A DNA stretch of 19,666 nt from Alphaproteobacteria bacterium (lineage in GTDB: Bacteria > Pseudomonadota > Alphaproteobacteria > Puniceispirillales > Puniceispirillaceae), in the NCBI GenBank assembly GCA_022425565.1, contig JAKMFG010000004.1, positions 1 to 19,666 of the forward strand. The letters run 5' to 3'. Shown piece by piece: positions 1 to 17,203 of the stretch. Within the stretch, counting starts at the first letter, position 1. Each line of letters begins with the position of its first letter. The notes under the pieces are model-generated. The model made no database searches. It saw only the letters and a list, made by a program, of their open reading frames with translations, and was not told the origin of the DNA. The translations under genes were made by a program, and so were the position numbers.

Positions 1-1104
1 CCACAGCGCGAACTGGGTTTCGTTCGCCGCCTGCGAATCATTGATGTTGGCAGCCGATCCGCTGGCGCAGCGCCATGGCAGATCGACAAGCTGCGCCAGT
101 TGCCCCGCGACAAGCGAGGCGCGGAAATGTTCCGGCGTGCCAAAGGCAGGCGCGCCCGATTTCATATCGACATTCGAGGTAAAGGTGCCATAGCAGACCG
201 GTGCCCCGGGCCGCACCAGCTGGGTCAGTGTGATCGCCGCCAGCGCCTCGGCATGGCTCAGCGTCATCGCCGCCTCGACAGTGACTGGCGCCATTGCCCC
301 CATGAGAGTGAAAGGTGTGATAATTGACAACTGCCCGTGGCGGGCGAAATCGATCAGCCCCTGCGCCATCGGGATATCGATCTGGCGCGGCGAGTTGGTG
401 TTGATGATGGTGTAGCAGTGGCTCTCTGCCATAAACGCGTCATCGCTAACTCCGCGGAAATCACGCAGGATTTCGAAGCTCTCCATCACCTGCGGTGTGC
501 CACGGCTGAAGATGAAGGGCAGCTTGTCGGACATGGTGAGCTGCGAATCCATGGTGAAGTAATGCCGAACATTCATCGGCACATCCTGCGGCTCGATCAG
601 CGGCGGCATCATCTGCAGCACGTCGAAATGCTGGGTCAGCTTCACCAGTTCATGAAAATCCTGCCCGGTGCCAGGACGGCGTCCACGTTCCAGATCGGTG
701 GCGTGCGGCGCGCCGGCCCCCGGCTGGAAGACAAGTGTGCCGGGCTCCAGCAACACGTCGCGGTCACGGCGTGCGGCGCGGCACAGGATTGAACGCGGCG
801 CAGTGTCCAGCGCGGCCGCCACGATCTCACGCCCGATCCAGACCATTTCCGATGAATCGTCGACCTTTGCACCGCCTTCGCGAAAGATCTGCCGGGCCTC
901 GGGAAGCAGGATCTTCATGCCGAGAGTCTCAAGCGCCGTCAGCGCGGCATCGTGCATCGCCTCGATCGCATCGTCCGAATACAGCTTCATCGGGGGGAAC
1001 GGATTGCGCAGATTGCGGTAGTTAACCTTGCGTGCGGGTGCGCTGGTTTCGCGTGCCTGCCGCCCGCGACGGCCGCTGCGGCCAGCAGGTTTCTTTTTGT
1101 TCAT
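1..1104 (-). CDS. MttB-superfamily (trimethylamine methyltransferase-like) methyltransferase, 3' end outside window
   Basis: The reverse strand reads open for 368 codons from ATG at 1104 to the window edge. GGGGAG lies 7 nt upstream of the start. The protein has a basic, probably disordered N-terminus (about residues 1-26, rich in Lys and Arg). It then matches the MttB superfamily by eye: an early helix resembling 'AALTALETLGMKIL', 'PGAGAPHATDLERGRRPGT' near residue 130, and 'FGTPEHFRASL' and 'SGSAANINDSQAANE' near the visible end. Family members move a methyl group from a quaternary or tertiary amine to a corrinoid protein. The usual length is about 500 residues, so about a quarter is missing. 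No in-frame TAG occurs in the visible part, but the pyrrolysine position of true MttB would fall about where the window ends. Pyl and non-Pyl types therefore cannot be told apart here, and the substrate (trimethylamine, glycine betaine or other) is unknown. It is the last gene of a minus-strand PHP-phosphatase-methyltransferase run. Confidence 0.85.
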   Translation of the reverse strand, partial: MNKKKPAGRSGRRGRQARETSAPARKVNYRNLRNPFPPMKLYSDDAIEAMHDAALTALETLGMKILLPEARQIFREGGAKVDDSSEMVWIGREIVAAALDTAPRSILCRAARRDRDVLLEPGTLVFQPGAGAPHATDLERGRRPGTGQDFHELVKLTQHFDVLQMMPPLIEPQDVPMNVRHYFTMDSQLTMSDKLPFIFSRGTPQVMESFEILRDFRGVSDDAFMAESHCYTIINTNSPRQIDIPMAQGLIDFARHGQLSIITPFTLMGAMAPVTVEAAMTLSHAEALAAITLTQLVRPGAPVCYGTFTSNVDMKSGAPAFGTPEHFRASLVAGQLAQLVDLPWRCASGSAANINDSQAANETQFALW

Positions 1105-1190
1105 GGCCCAGCTCCCCGCCAACCGAAGTCATACGAGACGCTATCAAAGCCGCGAAGCGGGTCAATCGAATTCTCGCCGATGCCACATAT

Positions 1191-1819: not shown

Positions 1820-2752
1820 TCAGCGAAGGTCCAGATCTTCCATCCAGTAGGGATTCGACCATGCCTGCTTTCCCGCCTTGTCGGTCAGCACCACACGGAA
1901 GAACTCGAAATCGGTCCTGCTGATCTCGATTCTGGCCTCGGTCATGCCGTTGCCGCTTGTGGCAAATGACCGGTGTCCGCCTGCTGCGACAACGATGCGG
2001 TCCGCGGGCGAGCAGGTGATGTGGAGCATGTTGCCCTCAATTTGAATGGAGGTGAAATCTGGTCCGCACGATGCGTAATAGTCGCCCGCCTTCAGCGCTT
2101 TGAGGATGGCGCCCGCATTCAGCCCGTCCGCCGCGACCATAATCCATCCGCCGAACCCGTCGGCCAGGACATCGTGCGAATCATCGGTGGCGATGATGCC
2201 GGTCCTGAACCCCTCATTTGCCAGCTGGTCGATGGTGGCGATGCCGCCACCCCGATCGGCATCAAGGGCTGACGAGTGATTATAGGCTTCGACGGCATGC
2301 GCGCCGGCCTCGGCAAGGCTGCGTGCCTCTTCCGTGGTCATCGCATACCATTCTGGGTGCGCGATGCTGACGAAGGCCCCCGCGGCGACAGCTCGCCTGA
2401 CCAGTTCGGGACCCGTTTCAGTTGCGCTCGCTATGGGAAAGTCCAGAGGCAGCCCGTTGGCCAGAATGTGCCACAGCCCAGCCTGATCATGGAGTTTGCC
2501 GTGGCAATGCAGTTCGGCTGAGATGATGGTGATGAAATCCTCGCTGTCCAGCCCCGAGCTGTCACAGATGGTCCTGGCGGCAAAGCGCGGGTTGGTCCAG
2601 TAATGGTCCGACAGGCAGGTGAAATCATAGCCAGCCTCACGATAGAGGCGTACCACCTCTGCGGCCTCGTTCCGGCCATCCGAATGGGTGCAGTGGCCGT
2701 GAAGATTGCCGCGGTAGATTCTGCCGGTCGGGCAGAACAGGTCTCGGGACAT
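1820..2752 (-). CDS. PHP-domain metal-dependent phosphoesterase
   Basis: This 310-residue protein lacks a signal peptide and has the four PHP metal-binding motifs in order: 'LHGHCTHSDG' (about residues 17-26), 'CLSDHY' (about 46-51), 'SAELHCHG' (about 78-85), 'AHPEW' (about 130-134) and 'ATDDSHD' (about 194-200). The last third (about 205-310) looks like a beta-rich accessory region without a motif I recognise. PHP proteins hydrolyse phosphate mono- or diesters with two or three divalent metals; stand-alone members act on nucleotides or small phosphoesters, and the substrate here cannot be read from sequence. GGGAG sits 9 nt before the ATG. It heads the minus-strand run with the histidine phosphatase and MttB-like genes and is divergent from glpR across a 263-nt gap. 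Confidence 0.88.
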   Translation of the reverse strand: MSRDLFCPTGRIYRGNLHGHCTHSDGRNEAAEVVRLYREAGYDFTCLSDHYWTNPRFAARTICDSSGLDSEDFITIISAELHCHGKLHDQAGLWHILANGLPLDFPIASATETGPELVRRAVAAGAFVSIAHPEWYAMTTEEARSLAEAGAHAVEAYNHSSALDADRGGGIATIDQLANEGFRTGIIATDDSHDVLADGFGGWIMVAADGLNAGAILKALKAGDYYASCGPDFTSIQIEGNMLHITCSPADRIVVAAGGHRSFATSGNGMTEARIEISRTDFEFFRVVLTDKAGKQAWSNPYWMEDLDLR

Positions 2753-3804: not shown

Positions 3805-5419
3805 AAAGAGCTTCGATCTTCTGGTCATTGGTGGCGGCATCAATGGATGCGGTGTGGCGCGTGATGCGGCCGGCCGCGGGCTGTCGGTGCTGCTTGTCGA
3901 AAAGGACGACCTTGCGCAGGCGACCTCCTCGGCCTCGACAAAGCTGTTCCATGGCGGCCTGCGCTATCTGGAACATTTTCACTTCCGCATGGTGCGCGAG
4001 GCGCTTCAGGAACGTGAGACGTTGCTTCGCATGATGCCGCATATTTCCTGGCCGATGCGCTTTGTCCTGCCGGTCACGCCGGGGTTGCGATATGCGCAGG
4101 ACAATTCCTCACTTGGCCGGGTGCTGGCCTATATCCCGGGCCTTGCCGGCAGACGGCCCGGCTGGCTGACAAGGATTGGCCTGTTCGTCTATGACCATCT
4201 TGGTGGCCGCAAGATTCTGCCAGCCTGCCGGGCGCTCAACCTGCGCGACCATCCAGCCGGCGCGCCGCTTCAGGACCGTTTTGTCAAAGGCTTCGAATAT
4301 TCTGATTGCTGGGTCGAGGATTCGCGTCTTGTCGTGCTGAATGCACGCTCGGCGCAGGGCCATGGCGCGACGATCAGAACGCGGACAGGTTTCGAGGGCG
4401 CTAGACGCGAGGGCGGAGTCTGGAGGGCCGAGCTGTTGCATGCTGACGGGACGCGCGAGACGGTATCCGCCCGGGCGATCGTCAATGCGGCGGGCCCCTG
4501 GGCGCGCGATGTTCTGACCGGTGACATGCAGCGTGGCAACCGCCATGGGCTGCGACTGGTGCGGGGCTCGCACATCATTGTGCGCCGCCTGTTCGATCAT
4601 GATCAGCCCTATTTCCTGCAGCTGGAAGACGGACGTATCATCTTTGCCATTCCCTACGAGCGTGATTTTACGCTGATCGGCACCACCGATGTCGATCACG
4701 AAGGTGATGCCGGAGCTGCGGTCTGCAGCGATGCCGAGCGCAATTATCTGATTGCGGCCACCAACCGCTTTTTTAAGAGTGGTATCTCAAAGGATGACAT
4801 CGTCGCCACATTCTCGGGTGTTCGCCCGCTTTATGATGATGGGGCGAGTTCTGCCTCTGCTGCCACCCGCGACTATGTTCTGACCTGCGAGGACGAGCAG
4901 GGTGCCGCGGCGCTGGTCAATGTCTTTGGAGGCAAGATCACCACCTATCGGCGTCTTGCCGAGCATGTGATGGACAAGCTGCATCCCTATTTTCCCGACC
5001 TCGGCGAAAGCTGGTCAGGGGGCGAGCCGCTGCCGGGGGGTGATTTCGACATTGGCGACAGACAGGAGCTGGTCATAAGGCTGCAGCGCACATTCGGGTT
5101 TCTGACCGCAGAATGGGCCACGCGCCTTGTCACAGCCTATGGTACGGATGCCTTCACGATCCTCGAGGGTGCGACGTCGCGCGAAGATCTGGGGCGGCAT
5201 TTTGGTGGTACGCTTCACGCCCGAGAGGTCGACTGGCTGCTTACCCGTGAGTGGGCGAGCAGCGTCGATGACATATTGTGGCGGCGCTCAAAGCTGGGAC
5301 TTGTCCTCACGCCGGAAGAGGCTTCGGCCCTTGCTGCCTATGTTGCCAACCATCTTGCCGACCACCTTTACAGTACACGCAAGGCGTCTGCTGGTGATAA
5401 AGTCGTCGTGACCGGGTGA
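3797..5419 (+). CDS. glpD: Aerobic glycerol-3-phosphate dehydrogenase (FAD, membrane-associated)
   Basis: The 540-residue product oxidises glycerol 3-phosphate to dihydroxyacetone phosphate and passes electrons to the quinone pool. The N-terminus has the FAD dinucleotide motif GGGINGCG (residues 12-19). It is followed by the GlpD hallmark 'SSASTKLFHGGLRYLE' (about 46-61), then 'DNSS', 'WVEDSRLVVLNA' and 'IVNAAGPWA', with 'TLIGTTDVDHEGD' further on. The late 'NVFGGKITTYRRLAEH' leads into the C-terminal helical domain (about 400-520). Length is normal to slightly long for the family. Its ATG overlaps the end of glpR by 8 nt, with a purine-rich GAGGG upstream inside glpR. No glpF, glpK or G3P transporter gene is present nearby, so the G3P may come from glycerophospholipids. 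Confidence 0.95.
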   Translation: MGEKSFDLLVIGGGINGCGVARDAAGRGLSVLLVEKDDLAQATSSASTKLFHGGLRYLEHFHFRMVREALQERETLLRMMPHISWPMRFVLPVTPGLRYAQDNSSLGRVLAYIPGLAGRRPGWLTRIGLFVYDHLGGRKILPACRALNLRDHPAGAPLQDRFVKGFEYSDCWVEDSRLVVLNARSAQGHGATIRTRTGFEGARREGGVWRAELLHADGTRETVSARAIVNAAGPWARDVLTGDMQRGNRHGLRLVRGSHIIVRRLFDHDQPYFLQLEDGRIIFAIPYERDFTLIGTTDVDHEGDAGAAVCSDAERNYLIAATNRFFKSGISKDDIVATFSGVRPLYDDGASSASAATRDYVLTCEDEQGAAALVNVFGGKITTYRRLAEHVMDKLHPYFPDLGESWSGGEPLPGGDFDIGDRQELVIRLQRTFGFLTAEWATRLVTAYGTDAFTILEGATSREDLGRHFGGTLHAREVDWLLTREWASSVDDILWRRSKLGLVLTPEEASALAAYVANHLADHLYSTRKASAGDKVVVTG

Positions 5420-5435
5420 ACTTTTGGAGGCAGCA

Positions 5436-5585
5436 GTGACGCATGACAGCATGGATGGTGATGACACTCCGCTTACCGATGCGCTGCTGGACCAGTTCGC
5501 CACTTACTACCTTCTTGCGATGCTGGCAGTGCGGGCGCTTGAAGAGGCGCGCCGTCATGCCGGCGCGGCCAAGAAGCAGGCCTAG
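5436..5585 (+). CDS. Small uncharacterised protein (49 aa) in the glpRD operon
   Basis: A short frame starts with GTG at 5436, 16 nt after the glpD stop, and ends with TAG at 5583-5585. Its ribosome binding site TGGAGG (5425-5430) is 5 nt from the GTG and is one of the strongest in the window. The 49-residue product starts MTHDSMDGDDTPLTDALLDQ. It has an acidic N-terminal half, a central amphipathic or hydrophobic helix including 'YYLLAMLAVRALEEARR', and a basic Ala/Lys tail. Codons have the high G+C third positions of neighbouring genes. I recognise no family. A small regulator or membrane-surface partner of GlpD is possible from position only. The stop overlaps the convergent iclR stop within CCTAGG. 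An in-frame ATG at 5451 is an alternative start. Confidence 0.6.
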   Translation: MTHDSMDGDDTPLTDALLDQFATYYLLAMLAVRALEEARRHAGAAKKQA

Positions 5586-6343
5586 GCCGTTGCCGGCGTA
5601 AAAAGCAATTCACCTATCCGGGCCGCGTGGTCCCGCAGCATGTTGCGCTTGTCCATCGCGTCATCGATGTTGAAACGCTGTGTTGGGCCGTGGATGGCCA
5701 GTGCCGCATAAAACCGCCCGTGAGGATCGGTGACTGGTGCGGCGATGGCCACCATGCCTTCATGAAATTCTTCCCGATCGAGGCTAAATCCCTGCCGCTT
5801 GATTTCCGAAAGCTCATCTGCGAGTAGCGCCGGGTCGGTGAATGTATTCGGTGTCTGGGGATGCATCTGCAGGCTCGACAGGAAAGCGCGCCGACGGGCA
5901 GCCGGCAGGCTGGCCATGAAGAGCTTGCCACTTGCGGTGCAGTGGAACGGCACCTGGGTGCCGATCGGCAGCGCCACCCGGAAGGCCCAGTTGGTCTCGA
6001 CACGATCAATGTAATTCATGCCACGCGGCTCCGGCCTGACGAAGTTCACCGTTTCACCCGAATCGCGCGCAACCTGAAGCAGAATTTGATGGCAGCCGAC
6101 AAGCCCCGCGCTTCGGTCGGCAAGGCCGGTGGCCAAAAGGCTGGCCCGGTGCCCGGGATAGAGACGTTTGTCATGTTTCTCAAGAATGCCGGACTCGATC
6201 AGCGTCTGGCACAGCCGGTGGATTGTCTGCTTTGGCCAGCCCAGCCTTGCGTTCAGCTCGGTCGGCGTTGGCGCTGTGCTGCTCTCCGACAGAACTTCAA
6301 GAATGCAGATGGCGCGTAAATTCGGTGGCACATGTTCACTCAT
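5582..6343 (-). CDS. IclR-family transcriptional regulator
   Basis: This protein of about 253 residues has an N-terminal winged helix-turn-helix (about residues 8-65, with 'TPTELNARLGWPKQTIHRLCQTL') and a C-terminal IclR effector domain. The latter is marked by 'FRVALPIGTQVPFHCTASGKLFMA' (about 120-145, with the conserved H-x-T-A-x-G-K), 'REEFHEGMVAIAAPV' and a late 'ALAIHGP'. ATG at 6343 is preferred, with AGGTAGAG upstream; an adjacent in-frame GTG at 6346 would add one residue. It is divergent from the GMC-TRAP-hps operon across about 128 nt and is the most likely regulator of that operon. IclR-type regulators (IseR) are known next to isethionate dehydrogenase genes, an arrangement resembling this one. 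Effector and sign of regulation are unknown. Confidence 0.9.
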   Translation of the reverse strand: MSEHVPPNLRAICILEVLSESSTAPTPTELNARLGWPKQTIHRLCQTLIESGILEKHDKRLYPGHRASLLATGLADRSAGLVGCHQILLQVARDSGETVNFVRPEPRGMNYIDRVETNWAFRVALPIGTQVPFHCTASGKLFMASLPAARRRAFLSSLQMHPQTPNTFTDPALLADELSEIKRQGFSLDREEFHEGMVAIAAPVTDPHGRFYAALAIHGPTQRFNIDDAMDKRNMLRDHAARIGELLFTPATA

Positions 6344-6375
6344 CACAACTCTACCTCATAGCCTGCAGCCGTTTT

Positions 6376-6446: not shown

Positions 6447-6471
6447 AAAATAACATTATGAGGTTGTGGGG

Positions 6472-8067
6472 GTGGAATTCGACTTCATAATCGTCGGCGC
6501 AGGGTCGGCGGGTTGTGTCTTAGCAAATCGGCTGTCAGCAGACGGCCGGTACAGCGTCGCTTTGTTCGAGGCGGGCGGCAAGGACACCTATCCCTGGATC
6601 CACATTCCGGTCGGTTATTTCAAGACAATGGGCAATCCCGCGACGGACTGGTGTTATCGCACCGAGCCGGACCCGGGACTGAACGGCCGCGCCATCAACT
6701 GGCCCCGCGGCAAGGTTCTGGGCGGCAGCAGTTCGATCAACGGGCTGTTATATGTCCGCGGGCAGCCGCAGGATTTCGACCAGTGGCGCCAGCTTGGCAA
6801 TCAAGGATGGGCGTGGGACGACGTGAAGCCGCTGTTCCGGCGTGCCGAGAACTGGGAAGGCGAACCCTCGGCGGCACGCGGTACGGGCGGTGCATTGAAT
6901 GTATCGGAAAGCCGTGTCCAGCGGCCAGTGATTGATGCCTGGGTCGATGCGGCTGCCAGTCTCGGCTATAAGCGGAATAATGATTATAATGGTGAGGATC
7001 AGGAAGGCGTCGGTCATTTCCAGATGACCATGCGAAACGGCCGGCGTTGCAGCAGTGCGACCGCGTTCCTGAAGCCGGCGAGGGGCAGGTCGAACCTGCA
7101 GATATTCACCGGCGCGAAAACCCTTGGACTGATCATGGAGGGCCGCCGCGCGGCCGGCATCAGGGTGCGGCGCGGCAATGAAGAGATCGAGGTGCGGGCT
7201 AGGCGCGAAGTGGTGCTGTCGGCCGGCTCACTCGGCTCGCCTCATATCCTGATGCTGTCCGGGATTGGCGCCGGCGCGGAACTTTCGGGGCATGGCATTG
7301 AAGTCGTTCACGACCTCGCCGGTGTCGGCAAGAACCTGCAGGACCATCTGCAGGCGCGCCCGGTCTACAAGACGATGTCAAGCACCATCAACAGCGAGAC
7401 AAGGCACCCGCTGCAATATGTCGGCATTGCACTGGAATATGCGTTGAAACGGTCTGGTCCGATGGCGATGGCGGCGAGCCTTGGCACGGCGTTCCTGAAG
7501 ACCCGCCCAGAGCTCGAGACACCGGATATCCAGTTCCATCTGCAGCCTTTCAGCGCCGACAAGCCGGGAGAGGGAACGCATCCCTTCTCGGCCTTCACCG
7601 CCTCGGTGCTGCAGCTTCGACCGGAAAGCGCCGGCCATATAGAGCTGAAGTCATCATCGCCTGATGATTATGTGTCGATCCATCCGAACTATCTGGCGAC
7701 AAAGACCGATTGCGACACGATTGTCGCCGGTGTCCGGATTGCCCGTGCCGTCTGCCGGGCCGAACCGGTCCGCAGCATGATAACTGAGGAATATGCGCCC
7801 GGCCCGAACGTAGATGATGCTGATGACGACGCCATTCTCGAATGGGTCCGCAACACGGCGACAACGATCTATCACCCCACCGGCACCTGCAAGATGGGAC
7901 CGGACAGGATGGCCGTGGTGGATTCAAGGCTCCGCGTGCACGGGATCGAGGGCTTGCGGGTCGCGGATGCCTCGATCATGCCGATCATCACCTCGGGCAA
8001 CACCAATGCGCCAAGCATCATGATCGGCGAGAAAGCCTCGGACCTCATTCTGGAGGACGCGGCATGA
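6472..8067 (+). CDS. GMC-family FAD-dependent alcohol dehydrogenase (choline/isethionate dehydrogenase-like)
   Basis: The product is 531 residues, normal for choline-dehydrogenase-like GMC enzymes. It starts 'EFDFIIVGAGSAG' with the FAD-binding GxGxxG. GMC signature 1 is GGSSSINGLLYVRG (about residues 84-97) and signature 2 is GSLGSPHILMLSGIG (about 253-267). The catalytic pair is H468 in HPTGTCKMG and N510 in SGNTNAP. GTG at 6472 is chosen because GAGG (6460-6463) is 8 nt away; GTG at 6466 is only 2 nt from it. GMC enzymes oxidise primary alcohols, transferring electrons to oxygen or the respiratory chain. No substrate can be read from the motifs. Next to an IclR gene and a TRAP transporter it resembles isethionate dehydrogenase IseJ, giving sulfoacetaldehyde. 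It might instead act on DHPS or another alcohol imported by the transporter. Confidence 0.85.
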   Translation: MEFDFIIVGAGSAGCVLANRLSADGRYSVALFEAGGKDTYPWIHIPVGYFKTMGNPATDWCYRTEPDPGLNGRAINWPRGKVLGGSSSINGLLYVRGQPQDFDQWRQLGNQGWAWDDVKPLFRRAENWEGEPSAARGTGGALNVSESRVQRPVIDAWVDAAASLGYKRNNDYNGEDQEGVGHFQMTMRNGRRCSSATAFLKPARGRSNLQIFTGAKTLGLIMEGRRAAGIRVRRGNEEIEVRARREVVLSAGSLGSPHILMLSGIGAGAELSGHGIEVVHDLAGVGKNLQDHLQARPVYKTMSSTINSETRHPLQYVGIALEYALKRSGPMAMAASLGTAFLKTRPELETPDIQFHLQPFSADKPGEGTHPFSAFTASVLQLRPESAGHIELKSSSPDDYVSIHPNYLATKTDCDTIVAGVRIARAVCRAEPVRSMITEEYAPGPNVDDADDDAILEWVRNTATTIYHPTGTCKMGPDRMAVVDSRLRVHGIEGLRVADASIMPIITSGNTNAPSIMIGEKASDLILEDAA

Positions 8068-8252
8068 GCAGATTGTTTTCATCCCTGTTTCGCAGGGGTA
8101 CAGGAATTCCCGGAAAGGCCAAAGCGCCCGAATTCATCGGCGCGGCACTTCGGGAACAGGGGTCTGGCATTCAACCGGATGCCGGGGGGCCTTCAGTGGC
8201 TTCCGGGTCAGATCACATCATTGAAGGCACCATAACGACAAGGGAGGAATCC

Positions 8253-9368
8253 ATGTCAAAACTCACCAAACTGACCTCGGCCGTTGCCGCGGCCGGCGTA
8301 GGTCTCGCCATGTTGGCGACTCCTATCGTGGCCCAGGCGAATGAGGTCCACATCAAAGTGCAGGCCGTTCTCGGCACACAGACGACTGAAGTTAAGATGC
8401 TTCGCGACTTTATGGATGATGTGACCGCCCTGACCGGTGGCGACGTCACCTTTGAGGTTCTGCCTGCAGGCGCGGTTGTCGGTGTTAAGGAGACCCTTGA
8501 CGCTGTTGACGCCGGTCTTGTTGACGGCGGCTTCGCCTGGACCCACTACTGGTCGGGCAAGCACCCGGCAGCCATGCTGTTTGGCTCGCCTGTTGCTGGT
8601 GCCGGTGTTGGTATCGACAACATTGCATTCGTATCCTGGTTCCAGTTCGGCGGCGGTAAAGAGCTGTATGACCGTCTGTGGGACGAGATGAACCTGAACG
8701 TAAAAGGCTTCATGCTGCAGCCTGTCGGCCCTGAGGCCCTTGGCTGGTTCAAAGAGCCGATCAACTCGATGGAAGACTTCCGCAAGTACCGTTTCCGCAC
8801 GCCTCCGGGCCTGCCGGGCCAGACCTACAAGGACATCGGTGTTGCATCGGTTGCCATGGGTGGCGGCGACATCCTGCCGGCTCTCGAGAAGGGTACCATC
8901 GATGCGGCCGAGTGGTGCTGCCCGAAGCCGGACATGGATTTCGGTTTCCACAAGGTGCTCAAGCACTACTATCTGCAGGGTCTGCACCAGGTCGTTGTTA
9001 ACGCCGACATGTATCTGAACAAGGACGTCTACAACTCGCTGACGGACCATCAGAAGAAGGCCTTCGAGGTTGCCGCCAACGCAGCGCTGATGAAGGGCAT
9101 GTCCGCTCGTATCTACGACAACGGCAAGGCGCTTCATGAACTGACCACCAAGCATGGTGTGATCCTTCAGGACACGCCTGCCGACTACTTCCCGGCATAT
9201 ATGAATGCCGCGAACGCGCTGCTCGAGAAGAACTCCGCAGAGAACGAGTTCTTCGCCGAGGTATGGCAGTCGCAGAAGGATTTCGCACTTATTGCGGTTC
9301 CGTTCTGGTCGGGCGCACAGAGCTCCAACGCTCAGCTCGGCATGGCCTACGCCAACAGCCTGAAGTAA
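8253..9368 (+). CDS. dctP: TRAP transporter periplasmic substrate-binding protein (DctP family)
   Basis: This 371-residue protein has a signal peptide (MSKLTKLTSAVAAAGVGLAM, cleavage likely after AQA at about residue 28) and then the DctP fold. Conserved 'RFRTPPGLPG' carries the ligand-binding Arg (R182). 'GGDILPALEKGTIDAAEW' (about 204-221) is typical of the TakP-like group that binds small organic anions. Two adjacent Cys (222-223) after the Trp are unusual. AGGGAGGA lies upstream of the ATG, with GGAGG 5 nt away. The frame is open upstream to an ATGA overlap with the GMC gene at 8064, which could add 63 residues; the signal peptide favours 8253. Codons look strongly biased (AAC, AAG, CTG, GTT), as expected for an abundant binding protein. 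Context suggests a hydroxysulfonate such as DHPS or isethionate as ligand. Confidence 0.93.
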   Translation: MSKLTKLTSAVAAAGVGLAMLATPIVAQANEVHIKVQAVLGTQTTEVKMLRDFMDDVTALTGGDVTFEVLPAGAVVGVKETLDAVDAGLVDGGFAWTHYWSGKHPAAMLFGSPVAGAGVGIDNIAFVSWFQFGGGKELYDRLWDEMNLNVKGFMLQPVGPEALGWFKEPINSMEDFRKYRFRTPPGLPGQTYKDIGVASVAMGGGDILPALEKGTIDAAEWCCPKPDMDFGFHKVLKHYYLQGLHQVVVNADMYLNKDVYNSLTDHQKKAFEVAANAALMKGMSARIYDNGKALHELTTKHGVILQDTPADYFPAYMNAANALLEKNSAENEFFAEVWQSQKDFALIAVPFWSGAQSSNAQLGMAYANSLK

Positions 9369-9378
9369 TCCAACATGT

Positions 9379-9418
9379 GGTGAACCGCGGTATGCCGTGG
9401 TTCACCCACTTTTCTTTA
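9379..9418 (+). terminator. Hairpin with T-rich tail between dctP and the permease gene
   Basis: GGTGAACCGCGG (9379-9390) pairs with CCGTGGTTCACC (9395-9406) in a 12-bp stem with one G-T wobble and a TATG loop. The T-rich tail CACTTTTCTTTA follows (9407-9418). It begins 10 nt after the dctP stop and 103 nt before the permease ATG. Such a structure could end part of the transcripts or protect the 3' end of dctP mRNA, giving more binding protein than permease. The T-run is interrupted, so full termination is less likely. Confidence 0.65.
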
Positions 9419-9481
9419 CGAATTTCCACATCCTAATAATTGACCTTTGATTAAGACTGGCACGGCTAGCGGGGGCGTCAC

Positions 9482-13046
<3,565 letters not shown>

Positions 13047-13091
13047 CCGGCCGGGTAACTTCCCAATTCGAAGAGAGAGGATAGTGACACG

Positions 13092-13589
13092 ATGTCAGTG
13101 AATGATGTCATCATGGATGCGATGATCGAGAACAATGTCGGTTTCGTGACCACTGTGCCCTGCAAGCAGCTTGCCGGGGTGATTGAGAAAATTGAACAGT
13201 CCGACAAGATGATCCATGTCCCGTCGAACCGCGAGGATGAGGGGATGGGGCTGTGCGCCGGCGCCTTTATGGGAGGCCGCCGCCCGGCGATCATCATGCA
13301 GAATACCGCAATCGGTGTGACCATCAATTCGCTAGCCACGCTGATCCAGTATTACCGCATTCCGCTACCGATGCTGATCAGTTACCGCGGCGAGATCGGC
13401 GAGCCGGTGGCATGTCAGGTTGAAATGGCCGTCCACACCAAGGCGCTTCTCGATCAGCTCTGCATCCCGACTTACCATTTCCACAAGGAAGAGGATGCCG
13501 ACGAATTGCCGGCCATCCTCAACCACGCCTACATGGCCCGCAAGCCGGTTGCCGTGCTGATGGATGCCAGCTTCTGGAAGGGATATTGA
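13092..13589 (+). CDS. comD: Sulfopyruvate decarboxylase, alpha subunit (ComD-like)
   Basis: This 165-residue protein matches the pyrimidine-binding half of a thiamine-diphosphate decarboxylase, the ComD type. It starts 'VNDVIMDAMIENNVGFVTTVPC'. 'VPSNREDEGMGLCAGAFMGG' (about 43-62) carries the Glu residues expected to activate thiamine (E48/E50), and 'IIMQNTAIG' (about 66-74) follows. Two-subunit ComDE enzymes convert sulfopyruvate to sulfoacetaldehyde and CO2 in coenzyme M synthesis in methanogens and in sulfonate breakdown in bacteria. Phosphonopyruvate decarboxylases are related but usually one chain of about 380 residues, so the split favours sulfopyruvate. An AGAGAGGA-type ribosome site lies about 11 nt upstream. 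The beta-subunit gene follows after 4 nt. Confidence 0.85.
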   Translation: MSVNDVIMDAMIENNVGFVTTVPCKQLAGVIEKIEQSDKMIHVPSNREDEGMGLCAGAFMGGRRPAIIMQNTAIGVTINSLATLIQYYRIPLPMLISYRGEIGEPVACQVEMAVHTKALLDQLCIPTYHFHKEEDADELPAILNHAYMARKPVAVLMDASFWKGY

Positions 13590-13593
13590 GACC

Positions 13594-14148
13594 ATGATCC
13601 GCAGTGACGTACTGAAAACCTTGATCCCGCTGATTTCCGACGAGCTGGTGGTTACAAATATCGGCTTGCCAAGCCAGGAGATGCATCTTCTGGATGACCA
13701 GCCTACGAACTTCTACATGCTTGGCACGATGGGACTTGCCTCGTCGATCGGCCTCGGCCTTGCCATGGCGCAGCCTAAAAAGGTGATCGCCATCGACGGC
13801 GACGGTTCCGTGCTGATGAATCTCGGCACATTGCCGACGATTGCCAACAACCAGGTCCCGAACTTTATCCTGCTGATCATCGACAATGGCAGCTACGGCT
13901 CGACTGGCGACCAGACGACCTATGCCGGCATGCGCACCTCGCTTGCCGAGGTGGCACGAGCCTGCGGTTGTGACCATGTGGTGGAATGCGCCGCCGAGGA
14001 TACGGCTGCCGCAGTCGAGGCCGCGCTTGGCGCCGAGCAGACGACGGTAATCGTCTCGAAATGCGAGTCCGGCAATATCAAGGTGCCTGTGATCGAGCTT
14101 GATCCTGTGATGATCAAGGAACGGTTCATGGCATCAGTCGCAGACTGA
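13594..14148 (+). CDS. comE: Sulfopyruvate decarboxylase, beta subunit (ComE-like)
   Basis: This 184-residue protein (archaeal ComE is about 188) is the diphosphate-binding half of the thiamine enzyme. The thiamine-diphosphate/Mg motif runs from GDGS (G69-D70-G71-S72) to D97-N98-G99 ('IIDNGSYGSTGDQ'), the standard spacing. The N-terminal part ('VVTNIGLPSQEM', 'FYMLGTMGLASSIGLGLAMA') is close to my memory of ComE proteins. ATG at 13594 is used; an upstream in-frame ATG at 13564 lies inside comD and would add ten unlikely residues. The 4-nt gap from comD implies coupled translation of the two subunits. The product sulfoacetaldehyde would need Xsc, a reductase or a dehydrogenase, none of which is in the window. 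Confidence 0.87.
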   Translation: MIRSDVLKTLIPLISDELVVTNIGLPSQEMHLLDDQPTNFYMLGTMGLASSIGLGLAMAQPKKVIAIDGDGSVLMNLGTLPTIANNQVPNFILLIIDNGSYGSTGDQTTYAGMRTSLAEVARACGCDHVVECAAEDTAAAVEAALGAEQTTVIVSKCESGNIKVPVIELDPVMIKERFMASVAD

Positions 14149-14159
14149 AGGCGCGCGGC

Positions 14160-14924
14160 ATGGCGGCGGGGCAGCAGAATATGTTCAGCCTTGACGGGCA
14201 TGTCGCGCTTGTCACCGGGGCAAGCTCCGGCCTTGGCCGTCGTGCGGCCACGGTGCTGGCGGATGCGGGTGCATCTGTCATTGGCGTCGCACGCCGCGCC
14301 GACGCGCTGGAAAGCTGGGTTGCCGAGGGTGCCGGAAACCGTGCCGCTCTTCCTGCCGACCTGTCTGATGAGGCCGGTGTCGCCGCCATGTGCGAGGCGG
14401 CATCGGGAATGTTCGGCGCGCCCGATATTCTGGTCCATGCGGCCGGCGTCAATCTGCGCCAGCCTGCCGAGGATATCACGCCAGATGACTGGCATCTGAC
14501 CCAATGGCTCAATCTCGGCGTGCCTTTTTTCATCAGTCAGAAACTCGTGCCGGCGATGAAGGAACGCGGCTGGGGCCGTATCGTCAATTTTGCGTCGCTG
14601 CAGACAACAAGGGCCTTTCCCTCGGGCATTGCCTACGGGGCGTCAAAGGGCGGTGTCGGGCAGATGACGCGGGCCATGGCCGAGGCCTGGTCCAGCGACG
14701 GCATCAACACCAATGCCATCGGCCCGGGGTTTTTTCCGACCGAGCTGACGGCGGCAGTCTTTGCCGACGAGGCGCGCGCCGCCCGTAACGCGACGCAGAC
14801 ATGTATCGGCCGGAATGGCAGGCTCGAGGATATCGACGGGCCGTTGCTGTTTCTCTGTTCCGACGCCTCGGTCTATGTGACCGGGCAGGTCCTGATGGTT
14901 GACGGGGGGTTCACCGCGAAATGA
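14160..14924 (+). CDS. Short-chain dehydrogenase/reductase, candidate DHPS or sulfolactate dehydrogenase
   Basis: This 254-residue classical SDR has the nucleotide-binding TGASSGLG (about residues 20-27) and an 'ARRA' sequence after the second strand that favours NADP over NAD. HAAG replaces the more common NNAG. The active site is S146 with Y159 and K163 (YGASK), and 'VDGG' lies near the C-terminus. SDRs named HpsO occur in DHPS gene clusters as DHPS 2-dehydrogenases, and this gene sits in the matching place after hpsN and comDE. It could instead oxidise sulfolactate to sulfopyruvate, the step otherwise lacking here. The start at 14160 has GAAGG 8 nt upstream; ATG at 14181 (MFSLDGHVALVTG) is a reasonable alternative. 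The stop overlaps the next start in ATGA. Confidence 0.87.
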   Translation: MAAGQQNMFSLDGHVALVTGASSGLGRRAATVLADAGASVIGVARRADALESWVAEGAGNRAALPADLSDEAGVAAMCEAASGMFGAPDILVHAAGVNLRQPAEDITPDDWHLTQWLNLGVPFFISQKLVPAMKERGWGRIVNFASLQTTRAFPSGIAYGASKGGVGQMTRAMAEAWSSDGINTNAIGPGFFPTELTAAVFADEARAARNATQTCIGRNGRLEDIDGPLLFLCSDASVYVTGQVLMVDGGFTAK

Positions 14925-15904
14925 AAGCACTTGTCTATACCGGTACAAACGCAAGTGAGCTGCGCGATGTCGAAGCACCTGTCGCGGCAGGTGGTCAGAG
15001 CATCGTCGATTTGTCCTTTTGTGGAATCTGCGGGTCCGACATGCATGCCTGGCACGGCCATGACGAGCGCCGAATCCCGCCGCTCGTTCTGGGACATGAG
15101 GCGGTTGGCACGGCGCTGACCGGACCGCTCGCCGGACAGCGGGTGGCAATCAACCCGCTCATGACCTGCAATGACTGTCCCGCCTGTGATAGCGGCAATC
15201 ATCATCTTTGCGGCACGCGCGAGCTGATCGGCATGCGCCACCCCGGGGCCTTTGCCGAACAGGTGATGGTGCCCGATTCCAACCTGACTGTGCTTGCCGA
15301 CCATCTGTCCTTTTCCGAGGCGGCGCTGGCTGAACCGGCAGCGGTGGCGGTGCGTGTCGTCGAGATTGCTGCCGGTGCCGGCGCAACGCCGGATTCACGG
15401 ATCGTCATTCTTGGTGGCGGTGCCATCGGTGTGCTCGTCGCGCAGGTTCTTGCCGCGCAAGGCTTCGCCCCACCCCGCATCGCCGAGACCAATGCTCTTC
15501 GCCGCGGCATGCTCGACAATATCGGTGTCGCCGGAAGCTATGACCCGCGTGAGGAGACGCCGGATGACGGTTCGGTCGACCTTGTGATCGACTGTGTCGG
15601 CATGGGGGCCACCCGTGCTGCCGCCTCGGCGATGACGCGCCCGGGCGGTGTGATTGTCCATGTCGGCCTGCAGGATAACGAGCCGGGCCTCGACACCCGC
15701 CGCCTGACGCTTCAGGAGATCGATTTTCTCGGAGCCTATTGCTACCGGCATCAGGATTTTGCGACGGCACTCAGGCTTCTGACCGACGGCAAGGTGACCG
15801 GAGAAGGCTGGACCGAGATCCGTCCGCTGGACGGTGGCGCGCAGGCCTTTATCGATATTGACCAGGGCCGCGCCCCGCCGAAGATTATCCTCGCCACCGA
15901 CTGA
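14921..15904 (+). CDS. Zinc-dependent medium-chain alcohol dehydrogenase, candidate hydroxysulfonate dehydrogenase
   Basis: This 327-residue MDR protein has the catalytic zinc site (C37 in CGICGSD, H59-E60 in GHEAVG) and a complete structural zinc lobe (C83, C86, C89, C97). The Rossmann motif is 'ILGGGAIGVLVAQV' (about 164-177). It resembles the sorbitol/L-idonate/threonine dehydrogenase group and is slightly short for it. It starts within the stop of the SDR gene (ATGA), so the two are translationally coupled and probably act in one route, for example as the two dehydrogenases that interconvert DHPS enantiomers (HpsO/HpsP roles) or that reach sulfopyruvate. The substrate cannot be read from sequence. 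It is the last gene of the catabolic block, 44 nt from the photolyase genes. Confidence 0.9.
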   Translation: MKALVYTGTNASELRDVEAPVAAGGQSIVDLSFCGICGSDMHAWHGHDERRIPPLVLGHEAVGTALTGPLAGQRVAINPLMTCNDCPACDSGNHHLCGTRELIGMRHPGAFAEQVMVPDSNLTVLADHLSFSEAALAEPAAVAVRVVEIAAGAGATPDSRIVILGGGAIGVLVAQVLAAQGFAPPRIAETNALRRGMLDNIGVAGSYDPREETPDDGSVDLVIDCVGMGATRAAASAMTRPGGVIVHVGLQDNEPGLDTRRLTLQEIDFLGAYCYRHQDFATALRLLTDGKVTGEGWTEIRPLDGGAQAFIDIDQGRAPPKIILATD

Positions 15905-15930: not shown

Positions 15931-15951
15931 CATGCCCATCTGCCGGGCATG
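15931..15951 (+). promoter_or_regulatory. Hairpin enclosing the start codon of the photolyase FAD-domain gene
   Basis: CATGCCC (15931-15937) and GGGCATG (15945-15951) pair perfectly over 7 bp with a 7-nt loop. The right arm includes the ATG at 15949-15951. If it forms, it would hide the start codon. There is no T-run, so it is not a terminator, and I see no good Shine-Dalgarno for this start. A role in restraining translation is inferred only. Confidence 0.35.
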
Positions 15952-16761
15952 AACGAGACAATCCCCCTTCCGACCAAATTCGCCGACCGTGCGGCCATGC
16001 TGGCTCATCTGCGGGCCCTGTCAGGCCATGATGATGCAGCATCGGCGATTCCCGATATAGCGGCAGGCGGCAGAACAGCTGCCGAGGCCGTGCTAGCACG
16101 GATCGACCCGCGGGCCTACGCCGCCACCCGAAACCATCTCGATGGCGCGGTCACCAGGCTGTCCCCCTATATCCGACATGGCATCCTCAGTCTCGACGAG
16201 GTGCGCAATGCCGCCCTGGCATCCGTCAGCGATCCGAAACAGGCGGAGAAATTCATCCAGGAGCTTGCCTGGCGCGATTACTGGCAGCGCATCTATCTGG
16301 CACATCCAGAGCGTATCTGGAGCGATGTCGAATCCTACAAGACCGGGTTTGACGCCGCCGAATATGACGCCGAACTGCCGGCGGATATTGCTGCCGGCGA
16401 AACCGGCGTCGCCTGCATCGACCAGTTTATCGCGACGCTTTTCGAGACGGGCTATCTTCACAACCATGCACGCATGTATCTGGCGTCCTATACGGTGCAT
16501 TGGCGGCGCGTGTCATGGCAGGCCGGGGCGCGGTTCTTCCTCGAGCATCTGGTCGATGCCGATCCGGCCAGCAACAATCTGTCATGGCAGTGGATTGCCA
16601 GCACCTTCTCGAACAAGCCCTATATCTTCAATCTTGAGAATGTCGCGAAATATTGTGGGCCGGACATCAATACCATTCCGCGGCACAACCTGGTTCTCGA
16701 CCAGTCCTATGAGCGTCTGAGTGAATTGCTGTTCCCGTATATGGGAGGCCCGCATGGCTGA
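15949..16761 (+). CDS. Photolyase/cryptochrome FAD-binding domain protein (C-terminal half only)
   Basis: This 270-residue protein corresponds to the helical FAD-binding half of DNA photolyases and cryptochromes, without the N-terminal alpha/beta half. Recognisable parts in order are 'YAATRNHLDGAVTRLSPYIRHGILS' (about 45-70), 'FIQELAWRDYWQRI' (about 101-114), 'TGYLHNHARM' (167-176, photolyase TGWMHNRLRM) and 'DADPASNNLSWQW' (203-215, photolyase DGDLASNNGGWQW). By hand alignment, N209 matches the FAD-contacting Asn378 of E. coli PhrB, and W213 and W190 match its electron-transfer Trp382 and Trp359. The outer Trp306 appears absent. No cluster of four Cys suggests an iron-sulfur type. The start codon lies in a hairpin and has no clear ribosome site; M17 is an alternative. 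The gene for the missing half overlaps its 3' end by 8 nt. Confidence 0.85.
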   Translation: MNETIPLPTKFADRAAMLAHLRALSGHDDAASAIPDIAAGGRTAAEAVLARIDPRAYAATRNHLDGAVTRLSPYIRHGILSLDEVRNAALASVSDPKQAEKFIQELAWRDYWQRIYLAHPERIWSDVESYKTGFDAAEYDAELPADIAAGETGVACIDQFIATLFETGYLHNHARMYLASYTVHWRRVSWQAGARFFLEHLVDADPASNNLSWQWIASTFSNKPYIFNLENVAKYCGPDINTIPRHNLVLDQSYERLSELLFPYMGGPHG

Positions 16762-17203
16762 TCTTGTATGGCTTCACGAGGGCGCATTGCGCCTGACGCA
16801 TCCGGTTTTCGCCGCCGGTGGACCGGGTGCCGCCACAGTCTTTATCTGGGACACGGACCGCCTTGCGGACAGCCATGTTGGCATCAAACGCCAGCTTTTC
16901 ATTTACGAAACTCTCGCCGAAATGTCCGAATCCCGAAGTTTGGACATCCATGAGGGGCGGACGGAAGAGGTGTTGCCGCGCCTTGCTGCACAGTCGAATG
17001 CCGGTCGTGTGCTGGTGCCTTCATCCCCCGACCCGGCGGTGCGTGCCAAGATTGGTGCCATCCGCCGCGCCGCGCCGGATCTCGAAATTGTCGAAATCGA
17101 GGATACGCCCTTCGTCACTATGGCGAACACACCGGACCTCGGCCGTTTCTTTCGCTACTGGAACAAGGCCAAGAAGAGTGCGCTCCGCCCTCAGGGCATC
17201 TGA
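16754..17203 (+). CDS. Photolyase-like N-terminal alpha/beta domain protein (other half of the split photolyase)
   Basis: ATG at 16754 has GGAGG 5 nt upstream and overlaps the FAD-domain gene by 8 nt; the frame is open further 5', but that part lies within the previous gene. The 149-residue product reads like the antenna/Rossmann-like half of a photolyase. It starts 'LVWLHEGALRLTHPVF' (photolyase LVWFRxDLRLxDNPAL). 'ATVFIWDTDR' forms the second strand, and 'KRQLFIYETLAEM', 'LDIHEGRTEEVLPRLA' and 'RVLVPSSPDPAVRAKI' follow. It ends with 'DLGRFFRYWNKAKKSAL', like the TPFxxFWKxxL segment that precedes the FAD domain in complete enzymes. The match is weaker than for the FAD half. Together the two products would rebuild about 420 residues of a normal-length photolyase, but with gene order reversed. 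Antenna binding and repair activity are unknown. Confidence 0.7.
   Translation: MADLVWLHEGALRLTHPVFAAGGPGAATVFIWDTDRLADSHVGIKRQLFIYETLAEMSESRSLDIHEGRTEEVLPRLAAQSNAGRVLVPSSPDPAVRAKIGAIRRAAPDLEIVEIEDTPFVTMANTPDLGRFFRYWNKAKKSALRPQGI

Follow-up and report, generated by a model that had tools for sequence, protein, structure and literature searches.

A predicted operon for DHPS catabolism in a SAR116 bacterium, with a GMC dehydrogenase related to isethionate dehydrogenase

The window analysed here, a stretch of 19,666 nucleotides, is the entire contig C152 of a draft genome (2.29 Mb, 82.6% complete) of a SAR116 bacterium. Eight named genes, all on the forward strand, encode a GMC flavoprotein dehydrogenase, the binding protein (DctP) and permease (DctQM) of a tripartite ATP-independent periplasmic (TRAP) transporter, a HisD-like dehydrogenase, ComD, ComE, a short-chain dehydrogenase/reductase (SDR) and a zinc-type alcohol dehydrogenase (Zn-ADH), while the gene of an IclR-family regulator diverges from them on the reverse strand. 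A preliminary description of the locus had proposed that it joins an isethionate-type module to a module for 2,3-dihydroxypropane-1-sulfonate (DHPS) and sulfopyruvate, and every gene that it listed was found, in a single operon that has one TRAP and one IclR. We read the locus as a DHPS catabolic operon leading to sulfoacetaldehyde, in which a GMC enzyme derived from the isethionate dehydrogenase IseJ is our leading, though tentative, candidate for converting sulfolactate to sulfopyruvate in place of SlcD.

The gene content and the DHPS half of the locus are firm. The HisD-like protein scores 582.8 bits against HpsN of C. pinatubonensis (8v35) and 238.5 against the best HisD, and it carries GRYAH at residue 123 together with conserved EH, GDK and QAEH segments. 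Passages of PMC11382572 describe a G-R-Y-A/S-H motif with an HpsN-specific histidine that separates HpsN from HisD, and judged by its sequence the protein is HpsN; a true HisD, the identity on which the preliminary description had expected its proposal to fail, is ruled out by the bit scores and the motif. The best solved match of the SDR is HpsO (8wwf, E 5.7e-117). That of the Zn-ADH is 8wwd (E 6e-87), a “zinc-containing alcohol dehydrogenase” which we take to be the HpsP of PMC11131964. By best match among solved structures and by comparison with known operons the SDR is assigned as HpsO and the Zn-ADH as HpsP; the roles of HpsN, HpsO and HpsP towards the enantiomers in Roseobacteraceae and SAR11 are treated in sections of PMC11131964. 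ComD and ComE both exceed the curated cut-offs for sulfopyruvate decarboxylase, and an Xsc gene lies elsewhere in the same genome, unlinked to the operon (contig C282, 937.9 bits, cut-off 676.4). These identities support the DHPS and sulfopyruvate module as first described. Among the relatives searched hpsN was present in 51 of 151.

In base pairs the spacing of the genes (Table 1) is IclR-119-GMC-185-DctP-113-DctQM-7-HpsN-45-ComD-(26 overlap)-ComE-11-SDR-(4 overlap)-ZnADH, with all gaps from GMC through ZnADH at or below 185 bp. GTG codons at 6466 and 6472 are both open to the GMC gene, and most of 8 relatives start at about the residue of 6472, which makes this the better start; with an exact end at 15904, the limits first given for the operon (6472..15904) held, as did the fusion of the permease, a single open reading frame (ORF) of 754 amino acids carrying both DctQ and DctM. 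Terminator-like sites in the region numbered 9, with 8.8 expected by chance, the stem at 9379..9406 having the most pairs, and a promoter scan of the region (2 found, 3.6 expected) was uninformative.

Table 1. Predicted features of the sulfonate locus, in positions of the window
Feature	Position	Strand	Basis
IclR-family regulator, divergent	5582..6346	-	Pfam IclR_C/HTH_IclR; 43% to IclR of Ruegeria ise-type locus; 94% to G389
GMC flavoprotein dehydrogenase, sister clade of IseJ	6466..8067 (start 6466 or 6472)	+	PF00732/PF05199; trees; below choline dehydrogenase cut-offs
TRAP solute-binding protein, nearest keto-acid/lactate type	8253..9368	+	PF03480; solved-structure matches; motif invariant in relatives
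12-pair stem-loop with short T-rich tail between binding-protein and permease genes; possible attenuator	9379..9406	+	
Fused TRAP permease DctQM	9482..11746	+	PF04290 and PF06808
HpsN, predicted (R)-DHPS 3-dehydrogenase	11754..13046	+	8v35 versus HisD scores; GRYAH motif
ComD, sulfopyruvate decarboxylase alpha	13092..13589	+	TIGR03845, 156.3 bits, cut-off 147.95
ComE, sulfopyruvate decarboxylase beta	13564..14148	+	TIGR03846, 233.4 bits, cut-off 221.5
HpsO, predicted SDR-type DHPS dehydrogenase	14160..14924	+	71% to HpsO of Leisingera hps operon; 8wwf
HpsP, predicted zinc-type DHPS dehydrogenase	14921..15904	+	41% to C. pinatubonensis and 48% to Leisingera HpsP; 8wwd

The GMC protein misses both curated choline dehydrogenase cut-offs (487.1 of 732.1 and 590.2 of 605 bits) and lies far from E. 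coli BetA in the tree, and choline dehydrogenase was rejected as its identity. The closest plasmid-borne relatives share about 62% identity with it, and the three inspected belong to IclR-TRAP-GMC loci with the gene order of the iseR-iseM-iseL-iseK-iseJ locus of R. pomeroyi. At the GMC locus of Paracoccus seriniphilus the genes for xsc, a sulfate exporter and pta adjoin, and an IseJ-group member in P. denitrificans has xsc alongside (tblastn). A FastTree phylogeny was built from the best 80 of 580 GTDB loci of a GMC alignment scan plus SAR116, class and family samples; matches below about 1,300 bp and identical proteins were dropped, leaving 149 rows (150 minus one short row). The window GMC belongs to an 88-row clade (support 99) that is sister to a 35-row IseJ clade, the two forming one group far from BetA, and a quick IQ-TREE run of 100 rows gave the window and IseJ clades supports of 97 and 95. 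GMC proteins from loci with the ise gene order form a clade to which the window GMC does not belong, and the larger group holds both. The outcome that the preliminary description had named as refuting it at this protein, grouping with choline or aliphatic alcohol dehydrogenases, did not occur, and the test came out in its favour. Its label of an isethionate-type module stands for the GMC as a member of the IseJ group; it does not extend to the separate clade (about 62% to IseJ), to a TRAP that is not IseKLM or to the differing layout. Ten residue positions are fixed differently in the window clade and in IseJ. Locus L301, with an ise-type TRAP, falls just outside the window clade in FastTree, a placement not kept by IQ-TREE. 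A second type of GMC at hps genes, 42-44% identical, is found in another family of the order (f175), where it lies beside HpsN-HpsO-HpsP-SuyAB (L111-L114), with a TRAP in view in L111-L113.

The gene order of the window occurs in three other genomes of its genus, with HpsN identities of 91-98%; it is entire in G389, while in G394 and G395 the contig breaks off before GMC. The neighbourhood search for hpsN, GMC and IclR that had been suggested for this locus shows that other genera and families also have an IclR-GMC-TRAP-hpsN core, and the arrangement is more than a chance one. A nearby hpsN was found in 56 of the 88 window-clade rows versus 1 of the 35 IseJ-clade rows (Fisher 7e-11), in 32 of the 46 rows with window-type GMC and at least 7 kb on both sides, and in 9 of 16 from an even draw of one family, a less biased sample. 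On the 46-row tree the linkage changes at least 7 times, gains and losses being indistinguishable. The layout of the join varies. In SAR116, Marinovum L249 and Shimia haliotis L299 the hpsN gene lies downstream with the same orientation; it comes after a divergent LacI gene in L244 and L252, is convergent in L313, L325 and L243, and stands upstream of IclR in L253 and L275.

To compare hpsN loci with and without a window-type GMC we used 113 distinct loci (57 and 56, respectively) after merging near-identical hpsN or comE genes; features were scored only within the fetched stretch, with thresholds that we set and in relatives that are not independent. HpsKLM was found in 2/57 loci with the GMC versus 22/56 without (p 1.8e-6), and the same contrast held in loci with 4.5 kb on both sides (2/27 versus 16/34, p 0.0007). 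The corresponding numbers of loci were 19 versus 9 for comDE, 3 versus 16 for suyAB and 1 versus 6 for slcD. Neither hpsO (21/27 versus 22/34, p 0.4) nor hpsP (25/27 versus 28/34, p 0.28) was associated with the GMC.

The binding protein of the window matches 4pet, 2hzk, 2zzv and 7ug8, a “Ketoacid-binding protein”, with E values of 7e-34 to 1e-29. Two further matches, with E values of 5e-23 and 4e-22, are to constructs of the lactate-binding TTHA0766; 2hzk is listed as SmoM, and we take it to be TakP. It gave no match to DHPS-binding 24gc or isethionate-binding 8t9t at E 0.001 and no BLASTP match to IseK or HpsK at 1e-5, so that it was not placed as an ortholog of IseKLM or HpsKLM. HpsK of Leisingera, in contrast, matches 24gc at 2.2e-202, and IseK of Ruegeria weakly matches 24gc (2.2e-10) and 8t9t (7.4e-9). 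E161, R182 and EWCCP are invariant in 74/74 window-type binding proteins (at least 55% identity), suggesting that these proteins may share one ligand. Proteins of this subfamily use a metal to bind 2-oxo and 2-hydroxy acids. Sulfolactate, a 2-hydroxy acid, would fit this ligand class, and DHPS and isethionate would not. A TerC-family membrane protein (YjbE-like) is found inside the GMC-TRAP module of many relatives, for example at L092:5059-5676 (forward strand); the TerC cluster is present in 48 window-clade loci, and in L128 a DUF475/TerC protein (4951-6015, reverse strand) lies between permease and hpsN. This protein is a candidate exporter of a product such as sulfite, and the window holds no TerC gene.

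There is no slcD in the window operon. Among loci with hpsN and comE and at least 1.2 kb behind comE, slcD was found in 1 of 12 with a window-type GMC versus 6 of 9 without (p 0.016). Three of the nine GMC-less loci (L077, L078, L121) are cut merged-operon contigs or come from a genome of the window's genus that is 58% complete, and without them slcD is present in 6/6 (p 0.0004), an exclusion that was chosen after seeing the data. The genomes G385 and G387 (99% complete) contain hpsNOP, comDE and xsc, and their best SlcD matches reach 40-41%.

Three observations point to a C3 substrate of the GMC: it is linked to hpsN, HpsKLM and slcD are scarce beside it, and its binding protein is of the keto-acid/lactate class. 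In the mechanism that we propose, a TRAP of the keto-/hydroxy-acid type would import a C3 sulfonate instead of HpsKLM, and IclR would replace the LacI-type HpsR. By homology to characterised enzymes HpsO, HpsP and HpsN would oxidise DHPS to 3-sulfolactate. As a derivative of isethionate dehydrogenase, the GMC flavoprotein may then oxidise sulfolactate to sulfopyruvate, the sole step that has no classical enzyme in the operon, by acting on the same HO-C-C-SO3 skeleton with a carboxylate on the carbinol carbon. ComDE is predicted to decarboxylate sulfopyruvate to sulfoacetaldehyde, which the unlinked Xsc would cleave to acetyl phosphate and sulfite. The locus is a real and recurrent merger within a known pathway, of which the proposed GMC step would be the new variation.

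Several points weigh against sulfolactate as the substrate of the GMC. The window genome has an unlinked FMN dehydrogenase that is 51% like SlcD (C326) and whose family matches are lactate dehydrogenases below cut-off; its counterparts lie one gene from a GCV_T-family gene, by our own reading dmdA, in L206, L207, L208 and L210 (Pfam for L210), while its own contig is too short to show such a neighbourhood, so that it is at most a putative SlcD. The step could also be performed by an NAD-linked ComC or SlcC. One locus (L255) carries both slcD and a window-type GMC, and the GMC of G387 has TerC adjoining and no TRAP seen. Of the window-clade rows 32/88 have no hpsN nearby, some on cut contigs, and the contrast in HpsKLM becomes weaker (2/15 versus 12/30, p 0.094) when each side must extend 6.5 kb. 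The predicted ligand class of the binding protein draws on distant matches, and the relatives are not independent.

The hybrid reading of the preliminary description has the GMC as an isethionate dehydrogenase, with one TRAP and one IclR serving both isethionate (C2) and DHPS (C3) on their way to sulfoacetaldehyde and Xsc. The position of the GMC within the IseJ group, far from BetA and among members with adjoining xsc, fits it, as do two loci (L309, L310) that pair the same TRAP with an IseJ-clade GMC and the occurrence of the GMC-TRAP module alone. We examined 80 genomes, of which 52 entered as hpsN carriers and 28 had no hpsN match at 1e-120. A GMC of at least 60% identity was found in 32, all among the hpsN carriers and in 0/28 of the others, which is partly plain linkage; one of the 32 (G447) falls in the IseJ clade. 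Xsc is present in 27 of these 32 and comE in 21, and of the 11 without a comE match 9 have xsc and 6 have suyB. The nine carriers with xsc and without comE have no sulfopyruvate route to Xsc via ComDE, which favours isethionate (or taurine) as their source of sulfoacetaldehyde and speaks against sulfolactate. G441 is one genome with Xsc and no comE match.

The distribution of the two GMC types weighs in the same direction. Among named genomes with window-type GMC, Xsc occurs in 40/43 (7/7 for those with IseJ), and IseJ and the window-type GMC occur together in only 2/43 (P 0.08 versus the family base rate). The cultured Marinovum algicola (L249) and Primorskyibacter sedentarius (L237) carry an IseJ in addition to the window-type GMC. 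Within 295 genomes of one family 77 have an IseJ-group GMC and 0 have two; with 37 IseJ-like (at least 70%) and 35 at or below 64%, 4.4 double carriers were expected (P(0) 0.007), the classes being set by identity alone with at most 4 candidates scored per genome. Such near-exclusion is the pattern expected if both enzymes did the same job. Because of this and the comE-less xsc carriers we keep the isethionate reading as a possible but less probable one, and a single enzyme for both substrates is also allowed. Against it stand the near absence of hpsN beside true IseJ, a TRAP that resembles neither IseKLM nor the isethionate-binding protein, and the conversion of sulfolactate to sulfopyruvate, which would be left without an enzyme. 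A 96% complete genome (G400) has the operon and no xsc match. The presence of Xsc is not decisive between isethionate and sulfolactate, since it is near-universal in carriers of both clades and can also be fed by taurine. We place sulfolactate slightly ahead of isethionate as the substrate, and neither is proven.

It is improbable that the GMC instead oxidises DHPS itself (at the hydroxyl of C2 or C3), as an enzyme linked to the respiratory chain that assists HpsO and HpsP or stands in for them. The hpsN linkage and HpsKLM scarcity would suit this role, and no hpsO was seen at the GMC loci L079, L235, L237 and L249, but hpsO and hpsP are about equally common with or without the GMC, so no substitution is seen and the GMC was rejected as a replacement for either, and the window already has HpsN, HpsO and HpsP. 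Least probable of all is that the GMC-TRAP module imports and oxidises some other hydroxysulfonate or hydroxy acid and only happens to lie beside the hps genes, for although 23/88 rows have the module TRAP with no hpsN in view (some contigs being cut) and the binding-site motif is invariant, a substrate of the DHPS pathway is favoured by the repeated changes in hpsN linkage and by how seldom HpsKLM occurs.

The window operon is a mosaic. In seven genomes of its genus the sulfonate locus lies beside two photolyase-domain genes and a propionyl-CoA carboxylase beta gene. Three of these, G385, G386 and G387, have a LacI-HpsKLM-HpsN-HpsO type at that site, the contig of G386 stopping at hpsO. Both hpsP and comDE are present as well in G385 and G387, G385 with an adjoining GMC-DctP-DctQM and G387 with GMC-TerC and no TRAP in view. 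The merged type is found at the same site in the window, G389, G394 and G395 (the contigs of the last two being cut). The HpsN of the window is 81-85% identical to that of other SAR116 GMC-hpsN operons versus 58-59% to that of the LacI-type loci in its genus, and its HpsP is 60-66% versus 43-44% identical. ComE is 74-86% identical to unlinked SAR116 ComE versus 69-72%. HpsO shows the opposite, with 61-67% to the LacI type (71% to Leisingera) versus 53-57%, and the nearest GMC outside merged operons is that of G385 (82%). HpsN, HpsP and TRAP are therefore of the SAR116 GMC-hpsN operon type, ComDE is nearest to unlinked SAR116 comDE and HpsO to the LacI-operon type, and from these identities the operon was assembled from at least two sources. 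Among the loci examined comDE lies between hpsN and hpsO only in the window and three genomes of its genus.

The photolyase genes of the window are two overlapping forward ORFs (15949-16761 and 16754-17203), with the FAD domain (PF03441) in the first and the N-terminal domain (PF00875) in the second, which is the reverse of the usual domain order and on separate genes; the same pair in the same order is found in six further members of the genus (L076, L077, L078, L117, L119, L120). At the other end of the window an MttB-family methyltransferase gene (1-1122, reverse strand) is cut by the contig end, its product scoring below the cut-off of the pyrrolysine-type TMA enzyme. Homologues lie near the GMC module elsewhere, at 37-38% identity in L241, L244, L252, L254, L258 and L317 and at 70% in L313. 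A 310-amino-acid protein (1820-2752, reverse strand) has by our own reading the look of a PHP-type metal hydrolase, and it gave no Pfam match even at E 1.

Phytoplankton and bacteria exchange sulfur and carbon in the currency of DHPS, sulfolactate and isethionate. The IseJ-derived GMC clade, keto-acid-type TRAP and IclR may perhaps form a widespread second mode of marine DHPS/sulfolactate catabolism, one that replaces HpsKLM, HpsR and SlcD (perhaps also IseJ) and uses one set for C2 and C3 hydroxysulfonates in streamlined ocean bacteria, although we hold this wider proposal with some reserve. Surveys keyed on HpsKLM, SlcD or IseJ would miss or misread uptake and oxidation in users of the module, which include SAR116, RCA/Planktomarina and other Rhodobacteraceae. 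Cultured carriers make the GMC step directly testable.

Parts of the pathway have been described before. Passages of PMC11382572 give HpsNOP, SlcD, ComDE and Xsc as one of three DHPS routes, found in Jannaschia, Ruegeria sp. ANG-S4 and Granulosicoccus, in which DHPS passes through sulfolactate, sulfopyruvate and sulfoacetaldehyde to Xsc with SlcD taking the middle step, and count hpsNOP with comDE and xsc in 37/272; the joining of hps and comDE is for this reason not new. Extracts of PMC10675870 already report hpsN with comDE in RCA/Planktomarina, while a search for “taurine”, “sulfolactate” and “xsc” in the main text of a 2025 paper on SAR116 physiology (PMC12262181) found none of these terms. 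The preliminary description had named no described locus with this exact combination; hps genes with ComDE and Xsc are published, and for a GMC beside hpsN no description was recognised in the open PMC literature, a scope that leaves aside most subscription papers and supplements.

Three plasmid operons, of Leisingera, Sulfitobacter and Alisedimentitalea, have a LacI gene and the order TRAP(P, Q, M)-HpsN-HpsO-HpsP-USP-ComD-ComE-alpha-hydroxy acid oxidase. In one of the three, the binding protein of the TRAP is of the solved DHPS-binding type. From its place we read the terminal “alpha-hydroxy acid oxidase” as SlcD (compare SPO0598 in the relevant part of PMC4334477). Like the SlcD route and these operons, the window has HpsN, HpsO, HpsP, ComD, ComE, a TRAP and a genomic Xsc; unlike them, its operon is without slcD, HpsKLM and LacI and has GMC, another TRAP and IclR, and its comDE lies between hpsN and hpsO in contrast to the plasmid order. 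The hpsRNOUP-suyAB cluster of C. pinatubonensis, as given in passages of PMC11382572, shares HpsN, HpsO and HpsP with the window but has an MFS transporter and SuyAB lyase and neither ComDE nor GMC. The isethionate locus of R. pomeroyi, iseR-iseM-iseL-iseK-iseJ (SPO2355-2359 in the relevant part of PMC4334477), has a gene order also found in Ruegeria AD91A and P. seriniphilus, and it resembles the window in its IclR regulator, its GMC dehydrogenase of the same group and its TRAP. The window differs in a GMC that is about 62% identical and of its own clade, in a TRAP that is not orthologous and has DctQM fused, and in orientation, with IclR diverging from GMC and the TRAP following GMC, whereas in ise loci the TRAP genes and GMC diverge.

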